Positions 6,497 to 32,178 of a stretch of DNA of 64,000 nucleotides are shown here, piece after piece (position 1 is the first letter of the stretch; each line of letters starts with the position of its first letter). Source of the stretch: Nakamurella aerolata (lineage in GTDB: Bacteria; Actinomycetota; Actinomycetes; Mycobacteriales; Nakamurellaceae); assembly GCF_013002705.1 (NCBI RefSeq), contig NZ_JABEND010000011.1, positions 62,001-126,000 on the forward strand. The letters are read 5' to 3'. The notes under the pieces were generated by a model, which ran no database searches, had not been told where the DNA came from, and saw nothing but the letters and a program-made list of their open reading frames with translations. The position numbers and the translations under genes are program-made.

Positions 6497-6742
6497 TGCC
6501 GATGGTCTGCCTGCGCGACCGGTCCAGCTGCCAACGGGGCAGCCCGGACTGGACCGCCATGGCAGGACAACAGGGAACCCGGTGCGAATCCGGGACTGCC
6601 CCGCAGCGGTGACCGGGAACGACAACCGTCACACAGCACTGGGCCGCGCCAGCCACACTGGGCCGCGGCCTGGGAAGCGACGGTCGGTAGGCCGGCGGCA
6701 GCACGCCGCAACGCCCGGGAGTCCGAAGACCTGCCGTCGGAG
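6497..6742 (+). promoter_or_regulatory. Cobalamin (AdoCbl) riboswitch
   Basis: The RNA contains the hallmark B12-box elements: GGGAACCCGGTGCGAATCC (6573 onward), CTGCCCCGCAGCGGTGA just after, and CGGGAGTCCGAAGACCTGCC near 6716-6735. A closing P1 helix can be drawn between CCGATGG (6499-6505) and CCGTCGG (6734-6740). The element lies about 120 nt upstream of a B12-type binding-protein gene and its ABC partners, the expected targets of repression by cobalamin. Between it and the start codon, ACCGCCGGTGGGTG can form a small hairpin that may sequester the translation start region. Confidence 0.92.
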
Positions 6743-21616: not shown

Positions 21617-22804
21617 TCAGGCCGAGGCCGTCCACCAATCCGCCTGCGGCGCAGGGGTTCCGGCGACGAAGCGTTCGCCAGGAGCGGGCAGCAGCAGCGC
21701 GTCACTGCCGGTGCCACCGCCGGTGCCGGTCTCAGTGTCGGCACCGGTGGCCGCCGCTGCGATGAGGCGCTGCACCGGTTCGGCCCAGTCATGCAGCGCC
21801 AGATTGAAGGTGGCCCAGTGGATCGGCAGCAACAGCTTGCCGCCAAGGTCACCGTGCGCCTGCCAGGCCTGCTCGGGATCCATGTGAATATCCGGCCAGT
21901 ACCGGCTGTACGCGCCGATCGGCAGCACCGTCAGGTCGAAGCCCGAGAAGCGGGCACCGATCTCGGCAAAACCGCTGTGATAGCCGGTGTCTCCGCCGAA
22001 GAACACCCGGTGCCCCGGGCCGGCGATCACCCACGACGACCACAGCGTGTCGTTGCGCCGCAGGCTGCGGCCGGAAAAGTGCCTGGCCTCGACGCAGCTG
22101 ACGGTCAGGTCGCCGACGCGGTGATCGGCACCCCAATCGAGCTCGACGATGCGACCTTCCGCCACGCCCCAGCGCCGCAGGTGCGCTCCGACCCCCACCG
22201 GTACCAGGAACGGGGCGCGCTGGGTGCGCACCAGGTGGTCAACGGTGGCCAGGTCGAGATGGTCGTAGTGATCGTGCGAGATCACCACGGCGGAGAGCTC
22301 AGGCAGTGCCTGCGGATCAATCGGCAATGGATGTAACCGGCGCGGTCCGGTCACTTGGGTGGGGGACACCCGCTCGCTCCATACCGGATCGCACAGCACC
22401 CGCTGGCCGTCAATCTCCAGCAGAACGCTGGCGTGGCCGAGCCAGGTAGCGGCAAGGGCCGCGGGCGGATCCGGGAATGCCGGCGCCATCAAACCTACTG
22501 GCGCGGAAGGCTTCCCATGATCGCCGCGACTGGCCATCAGCCGAATCACCTGCGTCGGCGTCAGCGCATCGGCCAGCACGCTTGCCGGGGTGCGGTTGAC
22601 GAAAGCCCCGTTCCGGTACTGCGGATTGCCGTCGGCGGCGCCGGCCAGTTCCCGCCGGGAGGCGCCCATGGCGTAGCGCAGTTTCCAGCCGAACCGAGCC
22701 GCGGCCGCCAGCGCGGCGCCGCCTGCGGCGAGCCCGATCGCCGCGCCGACAGCACGGCGATGTGAGCTACCACTGGCCCCGGCTGTGGATCTCTTGCTGC
22801 TCAT
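21617..22804 (-). CDS. MBL-fold metal-dependent hydrolase (NAPE-PLD/UlaG-like)
   Basis: 395 residues. An N-terminal hydrophobic segment (AVGAAIGLAAGGAALAAAA) suggests membrane anchoring or export. The metallo-beta-lactamase fold has the metal motif SHDHYDHLD, an upstream TWLGHASVLLEI strand, a later FFGGDTGYHSGF and a final LPIHWATFNLALHDW. This pattern fits the N-acylphosphatidylethanolamine phospholipase D-like group, although bacterial members often have unknown lipid substrates. The ATG at 22804 is used; the longer open frame upstream overlaps the divergent riboswitch leader. Confidence 0.82.
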   Translation of the reverse strand: MSSKRSTAGASGSSHRRAVGAAIGLAAGGAALAAAARFGWKLRYAMGASRRELAGAADGNPQYRNGAFVNRTPASVLADALTPTQVIRLMASRGDHGKPSAPVGLMAPAFPDPPAALAATWLGHASVLLEIDGQRVLCDPVWSERVSPTQVTGPRRLHPLPIDPQALPELSAVVISHDHYDHLDLATVDHLVRTQRAPFLVPVGVGAHLRRWGVAEGRIVELDWGADHRVGDLTVSCVEARHFSGRSLRRNDTLWSSWVIAGPGHRVFFGGDTGYHSGFAEIGARFSGFDLTVLPIGAYSRYWPDIHMDPEQAWQAHGDLGGKLLLPIHWATFNLALHDWAEPVQRLIAAAATGADTETGTGGGTGSDALLLPAPGERFVAGTPAPQADWWTASA

Positions 22805-22903
22805 CGCACCAGTCTGCCTGCTGCCGGGTGGTGTGGTCGCCGTCACTGGAATCCCTCGGCGATGACCGGTTGACGATGGCCCGGCGGCTGTGGCAGCCTC
22901 AAG

Positions 22904-22987
22904 CCAGGTCATGAGTTCCAGCGCACAGCCCCGGCTAGCTGGACGGCAACCCTCCCTCGCGGCGGGGTGCTCCGGGTGAAGACCTGG
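22904..22987 (+). promoter_or_regulatory. SAM-IV riboswitch
   Basis: The closing helix P1 is perfect: CCAGGTC (22904-22910) with GACCTGG (22981-22987). Inside are P2 (CCAGC with GCTGG), the conserved ACGGCAACCCTCC run, GGCGGGGTGCTCCGGGTGA and a possible pseudoknot between CCCGG in the P2 loop and CCGGG near the 3' side. This order is characteristic of the actinobacterial SAM-IV class. It lies far upstream (about 665 nt) of an amino-acid ABC and monooxygenase operon. A leader ORF and a hairpin lie in between, so SAM would be the first of several signals. Confidence 0.85.
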
Positions 22988-23153
22988 CATCGCGGTCGAA
23001 CGACACGATGCAAGCGCGAGCTCGCACGGTAGCGGGCCCTCACCGACGGGAACAATCGCAGTGACCACCGCTCCAGCCTCACCAGCAACCGACAGCGTTC
23101 GCGCCGCACAGCGGCCGCTGCAGCTGTGCCGAGCAAAGCTGTTGCGCCCCACC

Positions 23154-23213
23154 ATGTGCTCTCGCCGTCACATCGATCTGCTACGGGTCTCGTCGGCGCT
23201 CTGTTGCCACTGA
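23154..23213 (+). CDS. Cys-rich leader peptide of the sulfur-salvage operon
   Basis: The frame reads MCSRRHIDLLRVSSALCCH then TGA. The core RRHIDLLRVSSALC matches the family of very short actinobacterial 'putative leader peptides' found before sulfur-assimilation genes. In frame, TTG at 23142 and GTG at 23061 are alternative starts, and no strong ribosome binding site decides between them. Tandem Cys codons just before the stop would stall ribosomes when Cys-tRNA is low, consistent with attenuation at the downstream hairpin. Too short for ordinary gene finding; the motif match is my main evidence. Confidence 0.62.
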   Translation: MCSRRHIDLLRVSSALCCH

Positions 23214-23283
23214 TCAGGCACCGGTAACGCCTCGACGCTGTCGGCAGCGAAGCTGACCGCGCGGCGCCGCTGTCGGCGCCACG

Positions 23284-23338
23284 CCCGGCAGCCGGTGGCG
23301 CCGCTGCCCATGCCTGTGCTGGTGCACCGGCTGCCGGG
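23284..23338 (+). terminator. Strong hairpin, candidate attenuator
   Basis: CCCGGCAGCCGGTG (23284-23297) and CACCGGCTGCCGGG (23325-23338) form a perfect 14-bp stem around a 27-nt loop. There is no U-run, but GC-rich actinobacterial terminators often lack one. It lies 70 nt after the leader-peptide stop and 314 nt before the first structural gene, the place expected for leader-controlled termination. The role is inferred from position. Confidence 0.5.
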
Positions 23339-23370
23339 TCTGCCTCGGATATCCCGACCCGGCGGGCCTT

Positions 23371-23439
23371 CCGGCAGCTCATCCTGCAGTTCCAACCGGC
23401 AGCTCATCTGCAGTTCCACCCTGCAGTTCCATCCTGCAG
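23371..23439. repeat. CTGCAGTTCC repeats in the leader
   Basis: The words CCGGCAGCTCATCCTGCAGT and CTGCAGTTCCAACC are repeated: CCGGCAGCTCAT occurs twice and CTGCAGTTCC three times within 69 bp. There is no coding function visible. They could re-pair in alternative RNA folds of the long leader, or simply be slippage products. Confidence 0.5.
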
Positions 23440-23569
23440 ACCAGACGCCATTGCCCTCTGTTTGCCCTGCTCGTCAGATGCTCGTCAGATCCATCGTCCC
23501 GTCCCGCGACCGACTCGGCCGGCGGCCAGCAGCACACCGCATTCGGCCGGTGCCGCGGCGGTAGCCGGA

Positions 23570-23629
23570 ACCGTGACGAAATAAACCGTGACGAAATAAA
23601 CCGTGACGAAACGAACCGTGACGAAAGAT
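23570..23629 (+). repeat. Four 15-bp tandem repeats just before the ABC operon
   Basis: Four head-to-tail units of ACCGTGACGAAATAA occupy 23570-23629. The first two are identical and the last two diverge at the end. The array is AT-richer than its surroundings and ends 22 bp before the permease start. Each of the first two units contains a complete mini-frame GTG-ACG-AAA-TAA. It may be a set of protein-binding sites (iterons) or a stalling or translation-buffering device. Confidence 0.75.
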
Positions 23630-23651
23630 CGTTGACCTCAAGGACACCTTC

Positions 23652-24791
23652 GTGACAGCCACTCCAGTTACTGCCACCTCAACCCGGTCGACGCCGCACC
23701 CCGCGGCGCCTACGACCGCAACGCAAGCCATCCCAGCGCCAACAACCGCAGCGCCAACAACTGCACCGCCAACAACTGCGGCGCCAACAACTGCACCGCC
23801 AATCACCGCAGCGGATGCCGAATCACCGCCGGCGACTGAGCCGGCGGCGGCACCGAACGCGGCATCGCCACCGCCGGTCGAGCGCCTTCCGGTGGTCGGG
23901 GTGCGGCACCCGTGGCGCTGGGTCGGCATCGCTGCGGTACTGGTGCTGTTGGCTCAGCTGGTGCACGGTTTCGTCACCAACCCGGGTTGGGACTGGCCGA
24001 CGTTCGGCGCCTACTTCGTGTCGGCCACCGTGCTGAAGGCACTATGGGTGACGGTGCAGCTCACCCTGCTCGGAACGGCCCTGGGGTTTGTCCTCGGCAC
24101 GGTACTGGCAGCAATGCGCTTGTCGCGCAGCAGTTTTCTGCGTGTCGTGTCGTGGAGCTATGTATGGGCGTTTCGTTCCATCCCGTTGATCGTCCAGCTG
24201 CTGTTCTGGTTCAACATCGGCTATCTGTACCAAACCCTGCAGGTCGGCGTGCCGTTCGGGCCTGGGCTGTTCTCGGTGCAGACCAACTCGTTGTTCGGGC
24301 CGATGGGCGCGGCGGTGATGGGGCTGGCGCTGCACCAGGCGGCCTATGCCGCCGAGATCATCAGGGGCGGCATCGTGTCGGTGGACGCCGGCCAGCTCGA
24401 GGCTGCCGCGGCACTGGGCTTGCCCCGCCGCCGTCAGTTCTTCAAAATCGTTCTGCCGCAAGCAATGCGCAGCATCCTGCCGAACGGGGCCAACGAGGTC
24501 ATCTCGCTGTTCAAGGGCACATCCATCGTGTCGGTGATGGCGATTCCCGAGTTGTTCTACCAGGTTCAGGTGATCTACGGACGCAACGGCAGAGTGGTGC
24601 CGCTGTTGATGGTGGCGACGGTGTGGTACATCGTCCTCACCACCGCGCTGTCGATTCTGCAGCACTACTTGGAGCGCCGATTCGGCCGCGGCAGCGAGCG
24701 TCATCGAGGCCAATCGGCGGTGCACCGGCTGCGTTCGGGCCTCGCCGCGATCAAGGCCAAGGCGACGGAGTCGGCGGTGACCGGCCGATGA
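23652..24791 (+). CDS. Amino-acid ABC transporter permease
   Basis: 379 residues, GTG start with AGGACACC upstream. The first 80 residues are low-complexity (APTTAPPTT repeats). The rest is a polar amino-acid permease of the HisMQ/TcyL class. The helix WVTVQLTLLGTALGFVLGTV precedes the EAA loop AGQLEAAAALGLPRRRQFFK, and the C-terminal half ends with the VSVMAIPELFYQVQ segment. It is the channel for the ATPase and binding protein encoded next; the ATPase start overlaps its stop. The operon context suggests a sulfur amino acid such as cystine or an S-alkylcysteine as substrate. Confidence 0.82.
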   Translation: MTATPVTATSTRSTPHPAAPTTATQAIPAPTTAAPTTAPPTTAAPTTAPPITAADAESPPATEPAAAPNAASPPPVERLPVVGVRHPWRWVGIAAVLVLLAQLVHGFVTNPGWDWPTFGAYFVSATVLKALWVTVQLTLLGTALGFVLGTVLAAMRLSRSSFLRVVSWSYVWAFRSIPLIVQLLFWFNIGYLYQTLQVGVPFGPGLFSVQTNSLFGPMGAAVMGLALHQAAYAAEIIRGGIVSVDAGQLEAAAALGLPRRRQFFKIVLPQAMRSILPNGANEVISLFKGTSIVSVMAIPELFYQVQVIYGRNGRVVPLLMVATVWYIVLTTALSILQHYLERRFGRGSERHRGQSAVHRLRSGLAAIKAKATESAVTGR

Positions 24792-25570
24792 GCGCCGCAT
24801 CGACCAGTCAGGCGCCGATGATCGAGATCCGCGGCGTGCACAAGTCTTTCGGAGAGCTCACCGTGCTGCGCGGCATCGACCTGCGGATCGACCCAGGAAC
24901 GGTGACGGCCATCATCGGCCCCAGCGGATCAGGCAAGTCGACCCTGCTGCGCACCATCAATCACCTGGAGCAGGCTGACGCCGGCACTGTCACCGTTGCC
25001 GGCACGCTGATCGGCTATCGCCGCCGCGGCGATCGGCTGCATCAGCTGGCCGAGCGGGACCTCCTGCGACAACGCTCGACCATCGGGTTCGTCTTTCAGG
25101 ATTTCAACCTGTTCGGGCACCTGACGGTGCTGCAGAACGTGATCGAAGCCCCGCTGTCCGCACAACGCCGCAAACGGCGCGAGGTGGAACCACTGGCGCG
25201 TGACCTGCTCGCCAGGGTCGGCCTGGCGGACAAGGCCGACGAGTACCCGCGGCGGCTGTCCGGTGGGCAACAGCAGCGGGTCGCCATCGCCAGGGCCCTT
25301 GCCCTGCAGCCAGCGGTGATCCTGTTCGACGAGCCGACCAGCGCCCTTGATCCCGAACTGGTCGGCGAGGTGCTCGAGGTGATCGCCGAGCTGGCCCGCT
25401 CCGGCGCCACCCTCGTCATCGTCACACACGAGATCGGCTTCGCCCGGCGCATTGCAGACACGGTGGCCTTCATGGACGGCGGCCAGATCGTCGAATCCGG
25501 GCCGCCGAACTCAGTTCTCGACCATCCGCAGCACGAGCGCACTCGTGCCTTCCTGTCAAAGGTGTTGTGA
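24788..25570 (+). CDS. Amino-acid ABC transporter ATPase
   Basis: 260 residues beginning at an ATGA overlap with the permease. It has Walker [10 protein letters not shown], the Q-loop VFQDFNLF, signature [15 protein letters not shown], Walker B VILFDEPTSALDPEL and the H-loop VTHEIGF. The FNLF/H-loop wording is typical of polar amino-acid (GlnQ/TcyN) ATPases. It energises uptake with the adjacent permease and lipoprotein. Its stop overlaps the next start by one base. Confidence 0.9.
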   Translation: MSAASTSQAPMIEIRGVHKSFGELTVLRGIDLRIDPGTVTAIIGPSGSGKSTLLRTINHLEQADAGTVTVAGTLIGYRRRGDRLHQLAERDLLRQRSTIGFVFQDFNLFGHLTVLQNVIEAPLSAQRRKRREVEPLARDLLARVGLADKADEYPRRLSGGQQQRVAIARALALQPAVILFDEPTSALDPELVGEVLEVIAELARSGATLVIVTHEIGFARRIADTVAFMDGGQIVESGPPNSVLDHPQHERTRAFLSKVL

Positions 25571-26673
25571 TGCCACACTTCTCCGGTTTCGCTGGACAGT
25601 CAGAATCGAGCCCCAGCCCGACGACGATCGCCATGTCCGGATCGGCCAAGACTTTCCGTTCGCGTCGGTCGCTGCTGCGCTGGGCCGCGGTATCGGTCGT
25701 GGGTTTTTTCGGGTTGACCGCCTGCGCCACCCCGGACGACGCGGCGCCGACGGTACGGGTCGCGGCGCAGCCGGCCGCCGCCGGGCAGAGCGCCGGGCCG
25801 GGCGAAACCGGCGCGAGTAGCGCCGGCGTCAACCTCAGCCCGCAACAGAACCGGATCACCACCCCCAAGGTGGACAGCATTGCCGCGCTGGTACCCGCCG
25901 ACATCCGCAAGCGGGGGACCCTGGTGGTGACCGGATCCGCCGGCAGCGCGCCGCCGCTGCGTTTCTACGCCGATGACGACAAGACGGTGATCGGCGCCGA
26001 GACCGACCTCGCCTACTTGTTCGCCGACGTGCTCGGTCTGAAGGTGGAGCTACGGGCAGCGGACTGGGCACAGAACTTCGTCCAGATCGACTCCGGCAAG
26101 GCGGATGCCTTCATCTCCAATGTGACGGTCACCGAGCAGCGCAAGCAGAAGTACGACTTCGCCACCTACCGCAAGGACGACGTGGCATTCGAGGTGGGAA
26201 AGAACGTCAGCGGCGCCATCACCCGGCCGAAAGACGCTGCCGGACTGAAGATTGCCGTCAGCTCCGGCACCAACCAGGAGCAGCTGCTGCTGGACTGGAA
26301 CAAGCAGAACCAGGCCGCCGGGTTGCAGCCGATCGAGATCTCCTACTACCAGAACGCCACCGATTACTACCTTGCCCTGGGTTCCGGCCGCATCGACGCC
26401 TACCTCGGGCCGAATCCCAGTGCCGCTTACCACGTCGCCGTCACCGGGCAGACCCGGATCGCGGGTGTGGTGTCCGGTGCCGGGGACGCGCTGCAGGGCG
26501 AGATCGCCGTGCTCACCAAGAAGGGCAACGGGTTGGCGCCGGCGTACGCGGCCGCGATCAACGAGACCATCGCCAACGGCAGCTACGCGAAGGTGCTGGG
26601 GCGATGGAACCTGAGCTCGGAGGCCGTCAGCAGATCCGCCGTCAACCCACCCGGTCTGCCGGCTGAGGGGTGA
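25570..26673 (+). CDS. Amino-acid ABC transporter substrate-binding lipoprotein
   Basis: 367 residues. The signal peptide ends in GLTACATP, giving lipid-modified Cys52, with twin Arg (RSRRSLLRW) before the hydrophobic stretch. The bacterial extracellular binding-protein family 3 fold follows (IRKRGTLVVTGSAGSAPPLR, then VIGAETDLAYLFADVLGLKV, then DAFISNVTVTEQRKQKYDFA). The ATG at 25570 overlaps the ATPase stop and has AAAGG upstream; an internal ATG at 25633 is possible. It selects the ligand for this importer, probably a sulfur amino acid by context. Confidence 0.85.
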   Translation: MPHFSGFAGQSESSPSPTTIAMSGSAKTFRSRRSLLRWAAVSVVGFFGLTACATPDDAAPTVRVAAQPAAAGQSAGPGETGASSAGVNLSPQQNRITTPKVDSIAALVPADIRKRGTLVVTGSAGSAPPLRFYADDDKTVIGAETDLAYLFADVLGLKVELRAADWAQNFVQIDSGKADAFISNVTVTEQRKQKYDFATYRKDDVAFEVGKNVSGAITRPKDAAGLKIAVSSGTNQEQLLLDWNKQNQAAGLQPIEISYYQNATDYYLALGSGRIDAYLGPNPSAAYHVAVTGQTRIAGVVSGAGDALQGEIAVLTKKGNGLAPAYAAAINETIANGSYAKVLGRWNLSSEAVSRSAVNPPGLPAEG

Positions 26674-26767
26674 TCTGAGAAAAGCCCGTAGCGGCAGCCT
26701 TTTCGGTGCTTGCCGCCGACCATTGCCCATCAGCGTGATTGATTCGCCCTTCAGGAGATTCACGACC

Positions 26768-28000
26768 ATGTCAGTTGTTCTCTCGCTTTCCGGAAGTCCA
26801 TCGGCAAGCTCCCGCACCAACGCGGTGCTCGCTCACATCGGCCGCCGACTTCAGGTGGCCGGCCACCAGGTGCAGCAGCTGTCGCTGCGTGACCTGCCGG
26901 CTGCGGCGTTGTTGGCCGGCGACCGGACCGATCCGCAGGTCGCCGCCGCGGTCCAGCGCGTGGTCGAGGCCGATGCGCTGGTGCTCGGGTCACCGGTGTA
27001 CCAGGCGGCGTACTCCGGCCTGTTGAAAACCTTCCTCGACCTGTTGCCGCAGAACGCCTTCCGCGGCAAGGCCGTACTTCCGGTGGTCACCGGCGGCTCA
27101 CCGGCGCACGTGCTGGCAGTGGACTATGCGCTACGGCCGGTGCTGCACAGCCTCGGTGCCGACCACGTCGGTCCCGGCTGGTTCGTGCTGGCCAGGCACG
27201 TCCGGCTGTACCCGGACGGCGGTGCGGTGCTGGATCCGGAGGCGGCCACCCCACTGGCCGAGGTCACCGGCGGATTCCTGCGTCAGCTCGACGCCCGCGC
27301 GCTGTTGACCCAGCCGACGACACCGGCACCATCGGCCCAGCCCACCGGTACCGCCGACCCGGCCTCAGTCGCCGGGTCGGCCGCCGTTGCCGGATCGGCC
27401 GCGGTCGCCGGACCGGCGGCAGTTGCTCGATCGGATGCGGCCGGGCCGGTGGTGCGGGTGCGGGTCGTCCGCGACGGTGACCCGGCGCTCGCCCCGCTGC
27501 TCGCCGAACTCAAGGTGGAGTACGGCACCAGGTACGGCCGGGTGAATCCCAACACCGAGCTCACCGAGGTCGACGCCGACGAGTTCCACGAGCCGAATGG
27601 GGTCTTCCTGGTGCTGGAACGGGACGGTCACACCATCGCCGGCGGTGCGCTGCGCCGCAAAGCCGCTGACACCGCTGAAGTCAAACGCGTCTGGACCGAT
27701 CACCGCGAGCGTCGGCAGGGCCTCGGCCGCAGGGTGCTCGACGAGCTGGAGCGGGCCGCGGTGCGGCTGGGCTACCGCCGCCTGTACCTGACCACCGGGC
27801 CACGGCAGCCGGAGGCGGTCGCGCTGTACCGGGCGGCGGGCTACCGGCCCCAGTTCGACGTCGCCGCCGACCCGGAAACCATTGGTCCGCTTGCCTTTGT
27901 GAAGGAGCTGACCGCGGCTATCCCGGCGGACCCGACCGGTACCGAGCCGACGGCGGCGGCACCGGCGTTGCGGCCGGCCCTGGCGGGAGCGGATCGATGA
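26768..28000 (+). CDS. Fused NADPH-dependent FMN reductase and GNAT acetyltransferase
   Basis: 410 residues with an AGGAGA ribosome binding site at 26752-26757. Residues 1-170 are an SsuE/MsuE-like FMN reductase (SLSGSPSASSRTN flavin loop, ADALVLGSPVYQAAYSGLLK). Residues 185-225 are an Ala/Ser-rich linker with repeats of VAGSAA. Residues 230-375 are a GNAT acyltransferase with the acetyl-CoA site HRERRQGLGRRVLDELE. The reductase would supply FMNH2 to the two luciferase-like monooxygenases downstream. The acetyltransferase would acylate the imported amino acid, as YtmI and YxeL are thought to do in Bacillus. The fusion joins two steps usually encoded apart. Confidence 0.85.
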   Translation: MSVVLSLSGSPSASSRTNAVLAHIGRRLQVAGHQVQQLSLRDLPAAALLAGDRTDPQVAAAVQRVVEADALVLGSPVYQAAYSGLLKTFLDLLPQNAFRGKAVLPVVTGGSPAHVLAVDYALRPVLHSLGADHVGPGWFVLARHVRLYPDGGAVLDPEAATPLAEVTGGFLRQLDARALLTQPTTPAPSAQPTGTADPASVAGSAAVAGSAAVAGPAAVARSDAAGPVVRVRVVRDGDPALAPLLAELKVEYGTRYGRVNPNTELTEVDADEFHEPNGVFLVLERDGHTIAGGALRRKAADTAEVKRVWTDHRERRQGLGRRVLDELERAAVRLGYRRLYLTTGPRQPEAVALYRAAGYRPQFDVAADPETIGPLAFVKELTAAIPADPTGTEPTAAAPALRPALAGADR

Positions 28001-28977
28001 GCGGCTATGTGGTGGGACTGGAGCTGGCCACCGACACCGCCAACCCCGGCTACTACCGGCGGGTGGTCACCGCGGCGGAAGCAGCCGGCGTGACGCTGGT
28101 GACGTTGTCGGACTCGCTCGGCGCCCCCACCGCAAGGCTGCAACTCGACGCCGTTGGCGTTGCCGGCCTGCTCGCGCCGATCACCCACCGGATCGGGCTG
28201 GTCCCGACGGTCACCACCACCCACACCGAGCCGTTTCACCTGCAGGCCCAGATCGCCAGCATCGACTTTGCCTCGCAGGGCCGCGCCGGGTGGCAGGTGG
28301 CGGTGTCGTCGACGCAGCAGGAAGCCGACCAGGTGGGTCGCCGGCAGCCGGCCGCACCGGCCGAGCTGTGGCGCGAGGCCGGCGAGGTGATCGAGGTGAG
28401 CCGGCTGCTCTGGGATTCCTGGGAGGACGATGCGGAGATCCGGGACGAGCTCACCGGCCGATTCATCGACAGGGACAAGCTGCACTACGTCGACTACATC
28501 GGCCGGAGCTTCAGCGTGAAGGGTCCGTCCATTGTGCCGAGGCCGCCGCAGGGCCAGCCGGTGATCGTGCTCGAACTCGCCGAGCAGGCGGCCGCTGCGG
28601 TTGCCGGGTCGGCCGATGTGCTGATCGTGCAGGGAGCGGTGCAGCGCCCCGAGCAGCGCCCAGCACAGCGGGTACTGGCCGATCTCGGTGCGGCCCAGCA
28701 GGTATCACCCGATGCCGCTATCGATCTGCACCGCGCCGGCTGGGACGGCATCAGGGTCGCCGTCCGTGACGCGGCTGACCTCACCGCGCTGCTCGACCGG
28801 CTGTTGCCGCCACTGCGCGCCGAGCAACTGGTGAACCCTCGCGGCGGCACCGGCCGGACCCTGCGCAATGCGCTGGGGCTGCCGCGACCGAACAATCGCT
28901 TCGCGGCACCCGGCGCGACAGCGGCCGGCCCGGCGGACGGTGCCGCCGCGCGCCGCGTGGAAGGAGCCTTGCAGTGA
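27997..28977 (+). CDS. LLM-class flavin-dependent oxidoreductase (small type)
   Basis: 326 residues, start overlapping the previous stop (ATGA). A luciferase-like fold is seen in GVTLVTLSDSLGAPTARLQL, in ITHRIGLVPTVTTTHTEPFH and in SQGRAGWQVAVSSTQQEADQ. It resembles the YtmO-like member of sulfur-salvage operons. It would use FMNH2 from the upstream reductase and O2 to oxidise an organosulfur intermediate. The last 35 residues are Ala-rich. The exact reaction is not known. Confidence 0.78.
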   Translation: MSGYVVGLELATDTANPGYYRRVVTAAEAAGVTLVTLSDSLGAPTARLQLDAVGVAGLLAPITHRIGLVPTVTTTHTEPFHLQAQIASIDFASQGRAGWQVAVSSTQQEADQVGRRQPAAPAELWREAGEVIEVSRLLWDSWEDDAEIRDELTGRFIDRDKLHYVDYIGRSFSVKGPSIVPRPPQGQPVIVLELAEQAAAAVAGSADVLIVQGAVQRPEQRPAQRVLADLGAAQQVSPDAAIDLHRAGWDGIRVAVRDAADLTALLDRLLPPLRAEQLVNPRGGTGRTLRNALGLPRPNNRFAAPGATAAGPADGAAARRVEGALQ

Positions 28978-30302
28978 CATCACCGTCCAACCGCCGCGGT
29001 GCCGGCAAGCAACAGCTGCACCTGGCGGCGCACTTCCCCGGCGTCAACAACACCACCGTCTGGAGCGACCCGGAATCCCGTTCGCAGATCGAGTTCCGAT
29101 CGTTCGCGGAGCTGGCCGCCACCGCAGAGCGTGGCCTTTTCGACTTTTTCTTTCTGGCCGAGGGGCTGCGGCTGCGCGAGGTCAACGGCCGCATCCACGA
29201 TCTCGACGTTGTCGGTCGCCCGGAATCCCTCACCGTGCTGAGCGCGCTGGCCGGCGTCACCGAACGGCTCGGCCTGGCCGCGACCGTCAACGCCACCTTC
29301 AACGAGCCGTACGAGCTGGCCAAGCGGTTCGGCACCCTCGACCTGCTGTCCGGCGGCCGGGCCGCGTGGAACGTGGTGACCAGCTCCGACGCTTTCACCG
29401 GCGAGAACTTCCGCCGCGGCGGGTACTTGGATCACGCCGACCGCTACACCAGAGCCGCCGAAGCGGTGCGGGCCGCCAGGGCGCTGTGGGACTCGCCCGC
29501 CGACGATGGTCAGTTCCGTTTCACCGGAAAGCATTTCGACATCTCCGGGCGGTTCACGCTGCCAGAGTTGCCGCAGGGGCATCCGGTCGTCATCCAGGCA
29601 GGCGACTCTGCGCAGGGCCGCGACTTCGCCGCCGCCGAGGCGGATGTGGTGTTCACCCGGCACGGGTCACTGGCCGCGGGGCAGGAGTTCTACCGCGACC
29701 TGAAATCGCGCCTGCCGGGGCACGGGCGCAGCGCCGAGTCGCTGAAGATCATGCCGGGCGTCAGCGTTGTGGTCGGCGACACCGACGCGGAGGCGGAGGA
29801 GAAGGCCGCCCACATCCGACGTCAACAAGTATCCGGCGCAACAGCTCTCGGCCTGGCGCAGCTGCTGTGGGGAATTGACCTGTCGGATCGCGATCCCGAC
29901 GGCCCGCTGCCCGCGGAAGATCCGGTGCTCGACTCGGCCGTGGTGCAGGGCCGGGTGCGGCCAACCGATCCGGTGGGCACGGTGGCGAGGTGGCGCGCGG
30001 CGGCGGCCGAGAATGGGTGGACGCTGCGCGAAACCGTGATAGCGCAACAGAACCGGCAGTCGTTCATCGGATCGCCGGAGACGGTGGCGACCGCGATGGA
30101 TGAGTTCGTGCAGCAGCGAGCCGCCGACGGTTACATTCTGGTGCCGCATCTGACCCCTGGAGGACTCGACGATGTGGTCGAGCGAGTGGTGCCGGTGTTG
30201 CAGGAGCGCGGGGTGTTCCGCACCGAGTACGTCGGCAGCACGCTGCGCGAACACCTGGGATTGCCGCGGCCGAAGGGCGCCCGATCGTCAGGTGCAGCCT
30301 GA
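28974..30302 (+). CDS. NtaA/SnaA/SoxA-type flavin monooxygenase
   Basis: 442 residues, GTG start in a GTGA overlap, with AAGGAGCC upstream. It is a large LLM monooxygenase of the NtaA/SnaA/DszA group: LDLLSGGRAAWNVVTSSDAF and ENFRRGGYLDHADRYTRAAE are diagnostic, with FDISGRFTLPELPQGHPVVI following. Bacillus relatives YtnJ and YxeK cleave C-S bonds of N-acetylated S-substituted cysteines. The upstream FMN reductase and acetyltransferase fit that pathway. It is the probable C-S cleaving enzyme of the operon. Confidence 0.85.
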   Translation: MTSPSNRRGAGKQQLHLAAHFPGVNNTTVWSDPESRSQIEFRSFAELAATAERGLFDFFFLAEGLRLREVNGRIHDLDVVGRPESLTVLSALAGVTERLGLAATVNATFNEPYELAKRFGTLDLLSGGRAAWNVVTSSDAFTGENFRRGGYLDHADRYTRAAEAVRAARALWDSPADDGQFRFTGKHFDISGRFTLPELPQGHPVVIQAGDSAQGRDFAAAEADVVFTRHGSLAAGQEFYRDLKSRLPGHGRSAESLKIMPGVSVVVGDTDAEAEEKAAHIRRQQVSGATALGLAQLLWGIDLSDRDPDGPLPAEDPVLDSAVVQGRVRPTDPVGTVARWRAAAAENGWTLRETVIAQQNRQSFIGSPETVATAMDEFVQQRAADGYILVPHLTPGGLDDVVERVVPVLQERGVFRTEYVGSTLREHLGLPRPKGARSSGAA

Positions 30303-30303
30303 G

Positions 30304-32178
30304 ATGCCTGACGCCGCTGCGCCGGTGGTGGTCTTCGTCGGCGGGGGACCGCGGGTCACCAGCCTGCTGGAACGGTTGTCCGCCAACGCCTCTGCCGCCG
30401 GCAGCGGGCCGATGAAAGTTCATGTCGTCGATCCACACCCGCCCGGCGCCGGCCGGATCTGGCGGCAGCGGCAGTCGCGGTTGCTCTGGATGAACTCGGT
30501 GGCCGGCGACGTCACCCTGTTCACCGACGAATCGGTCACCATCGAGGGGCCGCACCGGCCCGGCCCAACCTTGGCCGAGTGGATTGCCGGAGCCGGCCGG
30601 ACCTTGCTGGCCGCGCACGGTATCGATCCGTCGACTACAGCGCTGGGCGGCAACGACTTTGTGCCGCGCGAGGTTGCCGGGCACTACCTGGCGTGGGCAT
30701 TCGACCGGGCCGCCGCTGCGCTGCCGCCGGGTAGCAGGGTGTACCGGCATACCGACTCCGCGGTCGCGGTGACCGACGATGTCGAAGGGCGGCAACGGAT
30801 TCGGCTCGCCGGCGGCGCGTGCCTGGCAGCGGATCTGGTGGTGCTGGCCCAGGGATATCTGGACAGGACACCCGAACCGGCTGAGCAGGTACTCGCCGAT
30901 CACGCGGTGCGAGTCGGTGCGCGCAATGTGCCGCCCGGTTACACCGCCGATCTCGACCTGAGCGGGCTGGGCGCGGGGCAACCGGTGCTGGTGCGCGGCT
31001 TCGGACTGGCCTTCATCGACCTGATGGTGTTGCTCACCCAGGGGCGGGGCGGCAGGTTCGATACCCGCTCCGACGGCACTCTGGCGTACCGACGAAGCGG
31101 CGCGGAGCCGCGGCTGATCGTCGGCTCCCGCCGCGGAGTGCCGTACCACGCCAAGCTCGGATACCAGTTGCCCGCGACGGGACCGAGCCTGCCGGAGTAT
31201 CTGCCGAGCCCAGGATCATTTGCTCCGGACGGGTACGACTATCGGCGCGACATCGCCCCGCTGGTCGCCGCGGAACTCCGGGCCGCGCACTACCGGCGGT
31301 TGTTCGACGCGCATCCGGAGCGTTGCTCGGGCCGGTGGTCGGAACTGCGCGCCGCCCTCGAAGCCGGCGCCGCAGGCAGCGCCGATCAACTCCGACGTCA
31401 GGTGCCCGACCCGCGCGACCGGTTCGACCTCGACCGGCTGAATCGGCCGCTGGCCGGCCGCCGCTGGGCTGGTGCGGGAGTGGAACAGGCTGTGCGGCAG
31501 CACATTAGGGCAGACCTGGCGCGCCGGGCCGATCCGCGCTTCTCGCCAGATCGAGCGGTCTTCGACCGGCTGCTCACCGTGCACGGCACCCTCGCTGCCA
31601 TGGCGGCGGCAGGCGCGTTGACCGCGGACGACCGGGTCAGGCACGTCGAGGGTGAGTTCCACAGCCTGTTCTCGTTCCTGGCCAGCGGACCACCGCCGCG
31701 GCGACTGTCCGAGCTGCTGGCGCTGAACGAAGCCGGGGTGGTGCGGTTCGCCGGACCGGATCTGCAGATCACCCCGGTGGATGCAGGTTTCAGAGCCGAC
31801 AGCCCAGCCAGCCCGACCAGCTGGACCGCCGCCACCCTGGTGGACGCCCGACTGCCGCGCACCGAGGCCTCCGCCGTCACCGACCCGCTGCTGCGCGGGC
31901 TGCTCGCCGACGGAGAACTGGCGCACGGCAACGGAAAACTGCTCGCGGACGTCAGGGCAAGGGCCGTCCGGGCGGACGGCACCGCGCACCCCCGTCGGTA
32001 CCTGCTCGGTCCGTCGGTTGCCGGCTCGGCCGGGTCGGCCGGCTTCGCCCGGCCGGGATTCAATGCGCCGTCGCTGCGGCAGAACGATGCGGTGGCAAGG
32101 GATCTGCTTTCGCAGCTGCGGGAGATCACCGATCGGCGGGCACGCCCGCGCGCCGTTGCGCTGGCCGGATCTCGCTGA
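30304..32178 (+). CDS. FAD/NAD(P)-binding protein of the monooxygenase operon
   Basis: 624 residues. The N-terminal dinucleotide fold PVVVFVGGGPRVTSLLERL and the segment SRLLWMNSVAGDVTLFTDES place it in the FAD-NAD(P)-binding (PF13454-like) group. RGFGLAFIDLMVLLTQGRGG is a second flavoprotein landmark. The ATG at 30304 begins two bases after the previous stop. Such proteins commonly accompany LLM monooxygenases in actinobacteria, but their reaction is not established. It stands where related operons keep an M20 deacetylase, so it may process the oxidised product, though it is not homologous. Confidence 0.78.
   Translation: MPDAAAPVVVFVGGGPRVTSLLERLSANASAAGSGPMKVHVVDPHPPGAGRIWRQRQSRLLWMNSVAGDVTLFTDESVTIEGPHRPGPTLAEWIAGAGRTLLAAHGIDPSTTALGGNDFVPREVAGHYLAWAFDRAAAALPPGSRVYRHTDSAVAVTDDVEGRQRIRLAGGACLAADLVVLAQGYLDRTPEPAEQVLADHAVRVGARNVPPGYTADLDLSGLGAGQPVLVRGFGLAFIDLMVLLTQGRGGRFDTRSDGTLAYRRSGAEPRLIVGSRRGVPYHAKLGYQLPATGPSLPEYLPSPGSFAPDGYDYRRDIAPLVAAELRAAHYRRLFDAHPERCSGRWSELRAALEAGAAGSADQLRRQVPDPRDRFDLDRLNRPLAGRRWAGAGVEQAVRQHIRADLARRADPRFSPDRAVFDRLLTVHGTLAAMAAAGALTADDRVRHVEGEFHSLFSFLASGPPPRRLSELLALNEAGVVRFAGPDLQITPVDAGFRADSPASPTSWTAATLVDARLPRTEASAVTDPLLRGLLADGELAHGNGKLLADVRARAVRADGTAHPRRYLLGPSVAGSAGSAGFARPGFNAPSLRQNDAVARDLLSQLREITDRRARPRAVALAGSR

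Follow-up and report, generated by a model that had tools for sequence, protein, structure and literature searches.

The leader of Salmonella mgtA combines Mg2+ with a proline leader peptide, and the operons for S-alkylcysteine salvage in Bacillus include an amino-acid importer. In Mycobacterium tuberculosis, riboswitches for Mg2+ (Mbox, pe20) and B12 (ppe2) control small upstream open reading frames (uORFs; PMC12810186, PMC11260477), and cysteine-rich leader open reading frames (ORFs) of mycobacteria were reported to be cysteine-responsive (Canestrari 2020, via PMC9031893 and PMC13236596; an earlier suggestion is found in PMC4633059). Regarding SAM-IV riboswitches, named after S-adenosylmethionine (SAM), a leader of this kind located before an aminotransferase class V-fold gene in S. 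clavuligerus gives premature transcripts (PMC8269248), and PMC8079986 separately lists a SAM-IV upstream of a cysteine desulfurase and, at other places, leader peptides. In this study, a 64,000-nucleotide stretch of the Nakamurella aerolata genome (contig NZ_JABEND010000011.1; referred to as the window) was analyzed, in which a SAM-IV riboswitch is directly followed by a leader ORF ending in cysteine codons and by an operon predicted to function in the acquisition of organic sulfur.

The aptamer matched the SAM-IV model RF00634 over positions 1–116 of 116, i.e., it is of full length and intact, and it is predicted to bind SAM and to act as an expression switch. It is one of four SAM-IV elements encoded in the genome. 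The leader ORF starts 38 nt behind the end of the aptamer, its GTG codon being located 43 nt past the aptamer mark AAGCGC. The deduced peptide, VTTAPASPATDSVRAAQRPLQLCRAKLLRPTMCSRRHIDLLRVSSALCCH when read from GTG 23061, has the C-terminal part SRRHIDLLRVSSALCCH with the stop codon at 23211–23213, so that the Cys codons lie at the 3' end of the ORF (SALCCH directly before the stop). Its 24-aa C-terminal stretch scored 33.8 bits against the 'putative leader peptide' family NF042934 (cut-off 27), and the 50-aa form scored 30.9 bits; in the genome of 4.35 Mb this leader represents the sole match above the cut-off. According to our own arithmetic, the chance of such a match occurring within 250 nt downstream of one of the four SAM-IV elements, on the same strand, is about 1 in 10,000. 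An earlier note on this DNA had named both the SAM-IV riboswitch and the Cys-ending leader ORF, and both assignments were confirmed by these model matches.

In order to evaluate the recurrence of this arrangement, a sample of 246 genomes of the class was screened. SAM-IV elements were present in 150 of these genomes, and relatives of the second luciferase-like monooxygenase (LLM2) of the operon (E ≤ 1e-110) were found in 48, amounting to 61 matches. For each of the 61 matches, the surrounding region was extracted, with a length of up to 20 kb or less at contig ends. A SAM-IV model was run over 80 sources, some of which represent other leads, and yielded 18 matches. Twelve of them were inspected base by base, ten of these being from LLM2 regions and the other two being the window and L100, which is a related sulfonate-type operon; the remaining six comprise L109, L110, L116, L117, L118 and the second SAM-IV of L102. 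Directly behind the SAM-IV, 10 of the 12 inspected cases (window, L100, L102, L138, L146, L174, L176, L179, L141 and L144) carry an ORF that ends in the leader motif, the cassette of L174 being positioned behind LLM2. The clearest cousin is L102, featuring a SAM-IV, a leader, three luciferase-like genes, an importer and a GNAT acetyltransferase gene. The same locus harbors two divergent SAM-IV elements approximately 100 nt apart (L102:1956-2291), and the leader motif was detected behind the element oriented toward the monooxygenase operon and not behind the other.

Furthermore, 84,980 species, each represented by one genome, were scanned with a DNA pattern composed of the SAM-IV core, AAGCGC and a loose codon string for [VI]DLxR, in which Cys was not required. 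At least 119 loci were obtained, the true number being higher. Among the matches listed, a leader together with the SAM-IV core was present in 117 of 119 loci, and the motif [VI]DLxRxxx[AC]xC in 114 of 119. L245 and L246 were rejected as leader loci, as they represent ordinary genes. Leader types, start distances as well as codon and composition counts refer to 78 leaders taken from 80 of the at least 119 loci; for the remaining 39 the motif alone was checked. At another step of the analysis, four loci lacked the core pattern and were dropped. The species-wide scan and the class sample overlap (L288 with L174, L303 with L146). R1, a SAM-IV covariance model built without these loci, matched 78 of 78, including two that are cut by a contig end. 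Streptomyces appears in the titles of 67 of the 78 leader loci, and the other 11 include Kitasatospora, Streptacidiphilus, Peterkaempfera, Actinacidiphila, Terrabacter, a Pseudonocardia metagenome-assembled genome and unplaced actinobacteria. Hence, SAM-IV plus Cys leader is a recurrent cassette and not a one-off.

Sorting of the 78 leaders by script resulted in 49 of type A (DRAVDLLRVNSALC), 15 of type B (RRRHIDLKRSTSCLC) and 14 of type C, where L308 was placed in type C by rule, though it looks like type A. Among the type A loci whose available DNA reached far enough, 37 of 39 have a permease relative within 1.5 kb, 26 of 27 an ATPase relative, and 10 of 10 relatives of both luciferase-like monooxygenases. 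Operons headed by type A leaders are of the same kind as that of the window. For type C, LLM2 was present within 2.5 kb in four loci (L263, L287, L302, L312) and the permease in 3 of 10, and type B loci contained neither a permease nor an LLM2 relative (0/13 and 0/5, respectively). According to Pfam, the type B locus L255 begins with SBP_bac_5, a permease and oligopeptide-type ATPases. On NF042934, seven of ten typed tandem leaders passed the cut-off and three failed; two tested type A leaders, both at 18.3 vs. the cut-off of 27, remained below it. A second leader with the end SRPHIDLQRVASALCCS was observed within the type A operon of L286, directly before LLM1 (L286:4046-4414, forward strand). 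In Terrabacter (L301:2101-3024, reverse strand), SAM-IV and leader precede a cysteine-dioxygenase-like gene, which is unexpected for a cysteine-starvation signal.

Based on these observations, a nested switch is proposed, which we regard as fairly probable: the SAM-IV riboswitch would gate the leader and the leader would read cysteine, constituting an AND gate on sulfur scavenging. The aptamer would control translation initiation of the leader, at the place where many other SAM-IV elements have the start of the main gene. With SAM bound, the leader would stay untranslated, the C-rich RNA behind it would be left bare, and transcription would stop early, probably by means of Rho. At low SAM, the leader would be translated, and the ribosome would read the cysteine supply at Cys codons placed at a fixed distance past the RRHxDLLRV-type motif. 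Scarce cysteine would cause a pause at these codons and expression of the operon; under plentiful cysteine the ribosome would finish the leader and the operon would stay low. Such operons may consequently be switched on only when both SAM and cysteine are low. They would then import a sulfur-modified, cysteine-like compound, the sulfur of which would be freed by monooxygenases depending on reduced flavin mononucleotide (FMNH2). The double sensing put forward in the earlier note, in which SAM and cysteine would gate expression, is well supported by comparison, as a conserved Cys leader comes immediately after the SAM-IV in several genera.

The position of the leader start is consistent with the first step of this scheme. 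In the 78 loci, the distance from AAGCGC to the leader start has a median of 37 nt (10th–90th percentile 33–43 nt), where starts were picked by a script favoring Shine-Dalgarno (SD) sequences and the chosen starts possess an SD-like stretch. For comparison, SAM-IV elements were compiled irrespective of the genes behind them, namely the genome's four and 90 among the best-scoring ones listed for the class; 83 distinct ones of these carry the core pattern. A long ORF begins 22–62 nt behind the aptamer mark in 41 of these 83. Applying a cruder rule for first genes, 31 of 70 begin at 35–49 nt, the median being 53 nt.

The operon itself comprises seven genes on one strand (Table 1), all of which were confirmed by Pfam in agreement with the content given in the earlier note; NCBIfam additionally supports the reductase and LLM2. 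The genes had been described as joined by overlaps, which holds for four of the junctions (in order -4, -1, +94, -4, -4 and +1 nt), whereas the two others are gaps of 94 nt and 1 nt. No relative of the reductase-GNAT fusion protein was detected in the scan of genome contigs (one genome per species, 84,980 species), and among the matches listed in the class search (E ≤ 1e-30) both halves occurred together only in the window's own protein. The set of a YtnJ-family monooxygenase, an FMN reductase and a GNAT protein (TIGR03860, TIGR03567, PF00583), as expected for a system of the CmoO/CmoJ type, is present in the operon.

Table 1. Coordinates of the SAM-IV element, the leader, the intervening region and the operon genes within the window.
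Feature	Position	Strand	Remarks
SAM-IV riboswitch aptamer	22907..23022	+	RF00634, 103.6 bits vs. gathering score 38
Leader ORF	23061..23213	+	GTG start, 50 aa, ending in MCSRRHIDLLRVSSALCCH before the stop
Strong hairpin 3' of the leader, without U-tract	23273..23349	+	arms 23273-23297 / 23325-23349
C-rich, G-poor stretch, candidate Rho-loading zone	23334..23516	+	from sliding windows
Direct repeats just before the first gene	23569..23641	+	family D1, 15-nt spacing, four copies, the last only 61% alike
ATP-binding cassette (ABC) permease, amino-acid type	23652..24791	+	Pfam; best NCBIfam match cystine permease, under its cut-off
ABC ATPase	24788..25570	+	Pfam; best NCBIfam match TcyN, under its cut-off
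Substrate-binding lipoprotein, SBP_bac_3	25570..26673	+	Arg191 kept, Pro281 where AncQR has Asp
SsuE-type FMN reductase-GNAT acetyltransferase fusion	26768..28000	+	TIGR03567, 195.5 bits vs. cut-off 164.05; PF00583
LLM1, luciferase-like monooxygenase, short type	27997..28977	+	PF00296; best match 3sdo, next 7e36_A
LLM2, luciferase-like monooxygenase, NtaA/DmoA/YtnJ family	28974..30302	+	TIGR03860, 372.5 bits vs. cut-off 279.7
FAD/NAD(P)-binding protein, NAD_binding_9, putative	30304..32178	+	PF13454

Concerning the substrate, a sulfur-modified and perhaps N-acylated cysteine is probable; for free and N-acylated S-modified cysteines taken together, we consider the assignment slightly better than an even guess. 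The operon may act on N-acetyl-S-alkylcysteine in the manner of the CmoO/CmoJ system. A different sulfur source, i.e., sulfonates, sulfoxides or mercapturic acids (N-acetyl-S-conjugates) in place of free S-alkylcysteines, represents a tentative alternative of lower probability, with which the SsuE-type reductase scoring above its cut-off is compatible. Moreover, all 26 aligned binding proteins keep Arg191, and position 281, where AncQR has Asp, is occupied by Pro in 23 and by Ala in 3 of them, no Asp being found at positions 280–284 in any of the 26. In proteins such as GlnH or HisJ, the Asp aligned with position 281 usually binds the alpha-ammonium group. Its absence fits a blocked amine, e.g., that of a mercapturate, better than a free S-alkylcysteine, and actinobacteria make mercapturates from mycothiol conjugates. 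The monooxygenases point in two directions, as LLM2 scores about equally against 7e36_B (248 bits) and against YtnJ (246 bits), which we take to be CmoJ. CmoJ is the C-S monooxygenase of S-alkylcysteine salvage (PMC10863075), and 7E36 is the NtfO1-NtfO2 heterodimer, homologous to a polyketide hydroxylase pair (PMC8027225). Since LLM1 matches 7e36_A and LLM2 matches 7e36_B, the two may form a heterodimer of the 7E36 kind, a resemblance that speaks for the alternative. In contrast, the fusion of GNAT to the reductase and the GNAT gene behind the binding protein in L102 (and, by eye, in L286) fit the acetylation of an imported free amine, and the transporter argues in the same direction, as the closest resemblance of permease and ATPase is to cystine transporters, and the cystine family is the second-best NCBIfam match of the binding protein, all of them below cut-off.

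Hence, the Bacillus-like S-alkylcysteine salvage claimed in the earlier note stood in part. A YtnJ-family monooxygenase, a GNAT protein, an FMN reductase and an importer are present, whereas Pfam identified no M20 deacetylase among the seven operon genes, LLM2 is as near to NtfO2 as to YtnJ, and the Asp of the binding protein is missing. Four matches to TIGR01891 (M20) above cut-off are encoded on other contigs of the genome, and in Bacillus the deacetylases are redundant (PMC12757645). Altogether, the match of the predicted pathway to that of Bacillus is fair but incomplete.

The leader codons look selected for the peptide they encode. For the 12-codon core, the proportions of nonsynonymous and synonymous differences (pN/pS) amounted to 0.048/0.318 for type A (34 distinct sequences), 0.051/0.378 for type B (14 distinct) and 0.217/0.447 for type C (14 distinct), and the order of pN and pS was reversed in both shifted frames. 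Pairs with pS ≥ 0.75 were excluded (3 of 91 in type C, 13 of 1891 overall). These values are indicative only, because some codons are constrained by the search pattern and the leaders of each type are related to one another. Such constraint is also what an arrest peptide would show, where the nascent RRHxDLLRV sequence in the exit tunnel, and not the counting of codons, would sense cysteine or a related thiol. Conservation of the peptide is by no means confined to the Cys codons, with synonymous changes, and the distance from Asp to the first Cys is nearly fixed (9 residues in 60 of 78 leaders, 7 in 15 and 5 in 3). Furthermore, the motif is retained in Cys-less variants (see below). Conversely, Cys follows DL in 117 of 119 loci among the matches listed, the other two not being leaders, and the published model for the mycobacterial leaders, as relayed by citing papers, is cysteine-dependent elongation. 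Because this conservation is not confined to the Cys codons and two leaders lack Cys, the arrest reading retains some probability; we consider it unlikely, and it could be combined with the nested switch.

A still less probable explanation is that both controls are independent, the riboswitch acting alone on transcription and the leader having a transcript of its own, which might be leaderless as for the mycobacterial Cys leaders. The leader family indeed occurs without a nearby SAM-IV, with matches at E ≤ 0.01 in 183 of 246 genomes, and L101, L104, L106, L113 and L114 possess a leader and no SAM-IV match. The mycobacterial examples are leaderless (PMC4633059, PMC9031893), and in the window an ATG at 23154, inside the leader ORF, could begin a leaderless version of 19 aa. 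However, leader starts in the tandem loci have an SD-like stretch at the median distance given above, and an aptamer preceding the ORF with a common start position behind it speaks against a leaderless transcript. Types A and B moreover share N-terminal parts, which a short leaderless start would lose. The 19-aa version was kept as a rival only, because the longer ORF begins near the start position common to its relatives.

The region between leader and first gene bears on how the leader could act on the operon. The hairpin described in the earlier note was recovered, and it was not recognized as an intrinsic terminator. Its part 23280–23345, a stretch picked by eye, has a folding energy of -44.2 kcal/mol (z -3.7), and the entire 638-nt stretch folds barely better than shuffles (z -1.56). 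For the relatives, 58 gaps were scored for composition and terminators only; they come from those of the 78 loci in which 1200 nt or more are available behind the leader, the first gene is recognizable and the gap spans no less than 40 nt. Attenuation by terminator and antiterminator is not favored, because no intrinsic terminator was found at 22700–23800 of the window nor, by a simple rule, in any of the 58 gaps. C exceeds G in 57 of the 58 gaps, and the first 100 nt past the leader show a mean C minus G of 22 (75 loci). The corresponding value is 8 upstream of other genes in these loci (161 stretches) and 4.5 in random windows (390), the p-values of this comparison being overstated, since the loci are related. 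In the window, the best 100 nt behind the leader begin at 23417, with C minus G of 22. The C-rich zone and the missing intrinsic terminator are compatible with a Rho-type end, though no proof of it.

Several results weigh against the nested switch or limit its reach. In the window, the first 100 nt past the leader are barely C-rich (C minus G of 5) and the gap to the first gene is long (438 nt); as this C-rich signal is weaker than that of the relatives, we infer the Rho-type end with reservation. Folding of the window's platform is no better than that of shuffles (z 0.58), and RNAalifold applied to 30 loci recovered the aptamer pairs and no shared platform hairpin. The leaders at L141:12670-12917 and L144:9817-10062 (forward strand) end in SSAY with no Cys behind the motif; they retain RRLHIDLLRVSSA and face away from the LLM2 operon, which is encoded on the opposite strand, and the SSAY-ending peptide scored 31.8 on NF042934. 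L247, L290 and L352 read IDLLRVC, with an early Cys and a different end. The SAM-IV elements of L150 and L163, near such operons, drive a gene directly without a leader. Moreover, 30 of 70 first genes of the comparison set begin at least 100 nt away, so the 37-nt slot is one mode, common and not universal. Finally, the leader motif was present in 1 of the 83 comparison SAM-IV elements, the window's own, so the pairing is tied to particular operons and not to SAM-IV riboswitches generally.

Among the comparison SAM-IV elements, a second kind of short ORF was noticed. Within the 110 nt searched, CGAATG occurs 26–74 nt behind 24 of the 83 elements (L040, L042, L045, L048, L051, L054, L055, L059, L064, L065, L067, L068, L186, L189, L199, L200, L212, L214, L217, L224, L237, L239, L241 and L242), vs. 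17 of 1800 random windows. It mostly lies within a mini-ORF, e.g., GTG AGC AAG CGA ATG CGN stop, and examples of the encoded peptides are VSKRMR (with the stop following), MCIRRMCCR and MRSCRMHTR. By eye, the proteins downstream are presumably enzymes of methionine synthesis or cysteine desulfurases. These CGAATG counts suggest that SAM-IV elements precede short uORFs more often than noted so far. It is conceivable, though rather doubtful, that SAM-IV riboswitches of actinobacteria often license a sensing uORF in place of a gene, with a cysteine class (arrest-type RRHxDLLRVSSALC) and a CGA-AUG mini-ORF class; the window would then be a single instance of a more general, layered scheme. Elsewhere in the N. 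aerolata genome (contig C16, L118:2187-2700), another SAM-IV precedes genes for an NlpA lipoprotein (metQ-like) and an ABC ATPase, and a 49-codon ORF ending in RRCRACPQP begins 43 nt past its aptamer mark. A cobalamin riboswitch was detected elsewhere in the window (6559-6737, forward strand, 58.2 bits).

Both parts of the cassette are of known kinds, whereas their nesting, their spread and the type A leaders appear undescribed in the open-licence literature searched. A SAM-IV with a leader peptide behind it was not found reported there, including the accessible parts of PMC8079986, PMC3766115 and PMC12452182, which is weak evidence of absence. If the nested switch holds true, it would represent a natural RNA gate with two inputs, occurring in many soil Streptomyces, where the state of a metabolite riboswitch determines if a second sensor, based on translation, is on at all. 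It would also imply that SAM is sensed before cysteine, which can be tested, and it might provide a two-input part for synthetic biology as well as a regulatory handle on poorly known organic-sulfur operons.

Compared with described systems, the Salmonella mgtA leader is alike in that one 5' untranslated region unites RNA-based sensing with a leader peptide for an amino acid, but its aptamer, ligand, genes and lineage are all unrelated to those of the window. The Bacillus subtilis CmoO/CmoJ (ytm/ytn) and scm (yxe) operons share GNAT and the YtnJ-family FMNH2 monooxygenase (PMC10863075, PMC12757645); in contrast to them, the operon described here has no deacetylase gene and possesses a reductase-GNAT fusion, an extra FAD/NAD(P) protein and a different RNA control. 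The mycobacterial Cys-rich leaders and NF042934 members share the C-terminal motif of the leader, with its Cys codons, and likewise precede sulfur genes. However, the mycobacterial ones are leaderless, whereas the leader described here follows a SAM-IV aptamer, and both type A leaders tested fall below the family's cut-off. The uORFs of M. tuberculosis are similar in that a riboswitch (Mbox or B12) directly controls a small uORF before the main gene, and the start of the leader near the aptamer, at a median of 37 nt in the 78 loci and 43 nt in the window, is as in riboswitch-gated uORFs. In M. tuberculosis, the main gene is controlled by Rho-dependent termination (Mbox) or translation coupling (B12). 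The ligands are Mg2+ and B12, and amino-acid sensing is undescribed there in the accessible parts of the reports, whereas the cassette presented here combines the riboswitch with a Cys-type leader and thus has two predicted metabolite inputs.

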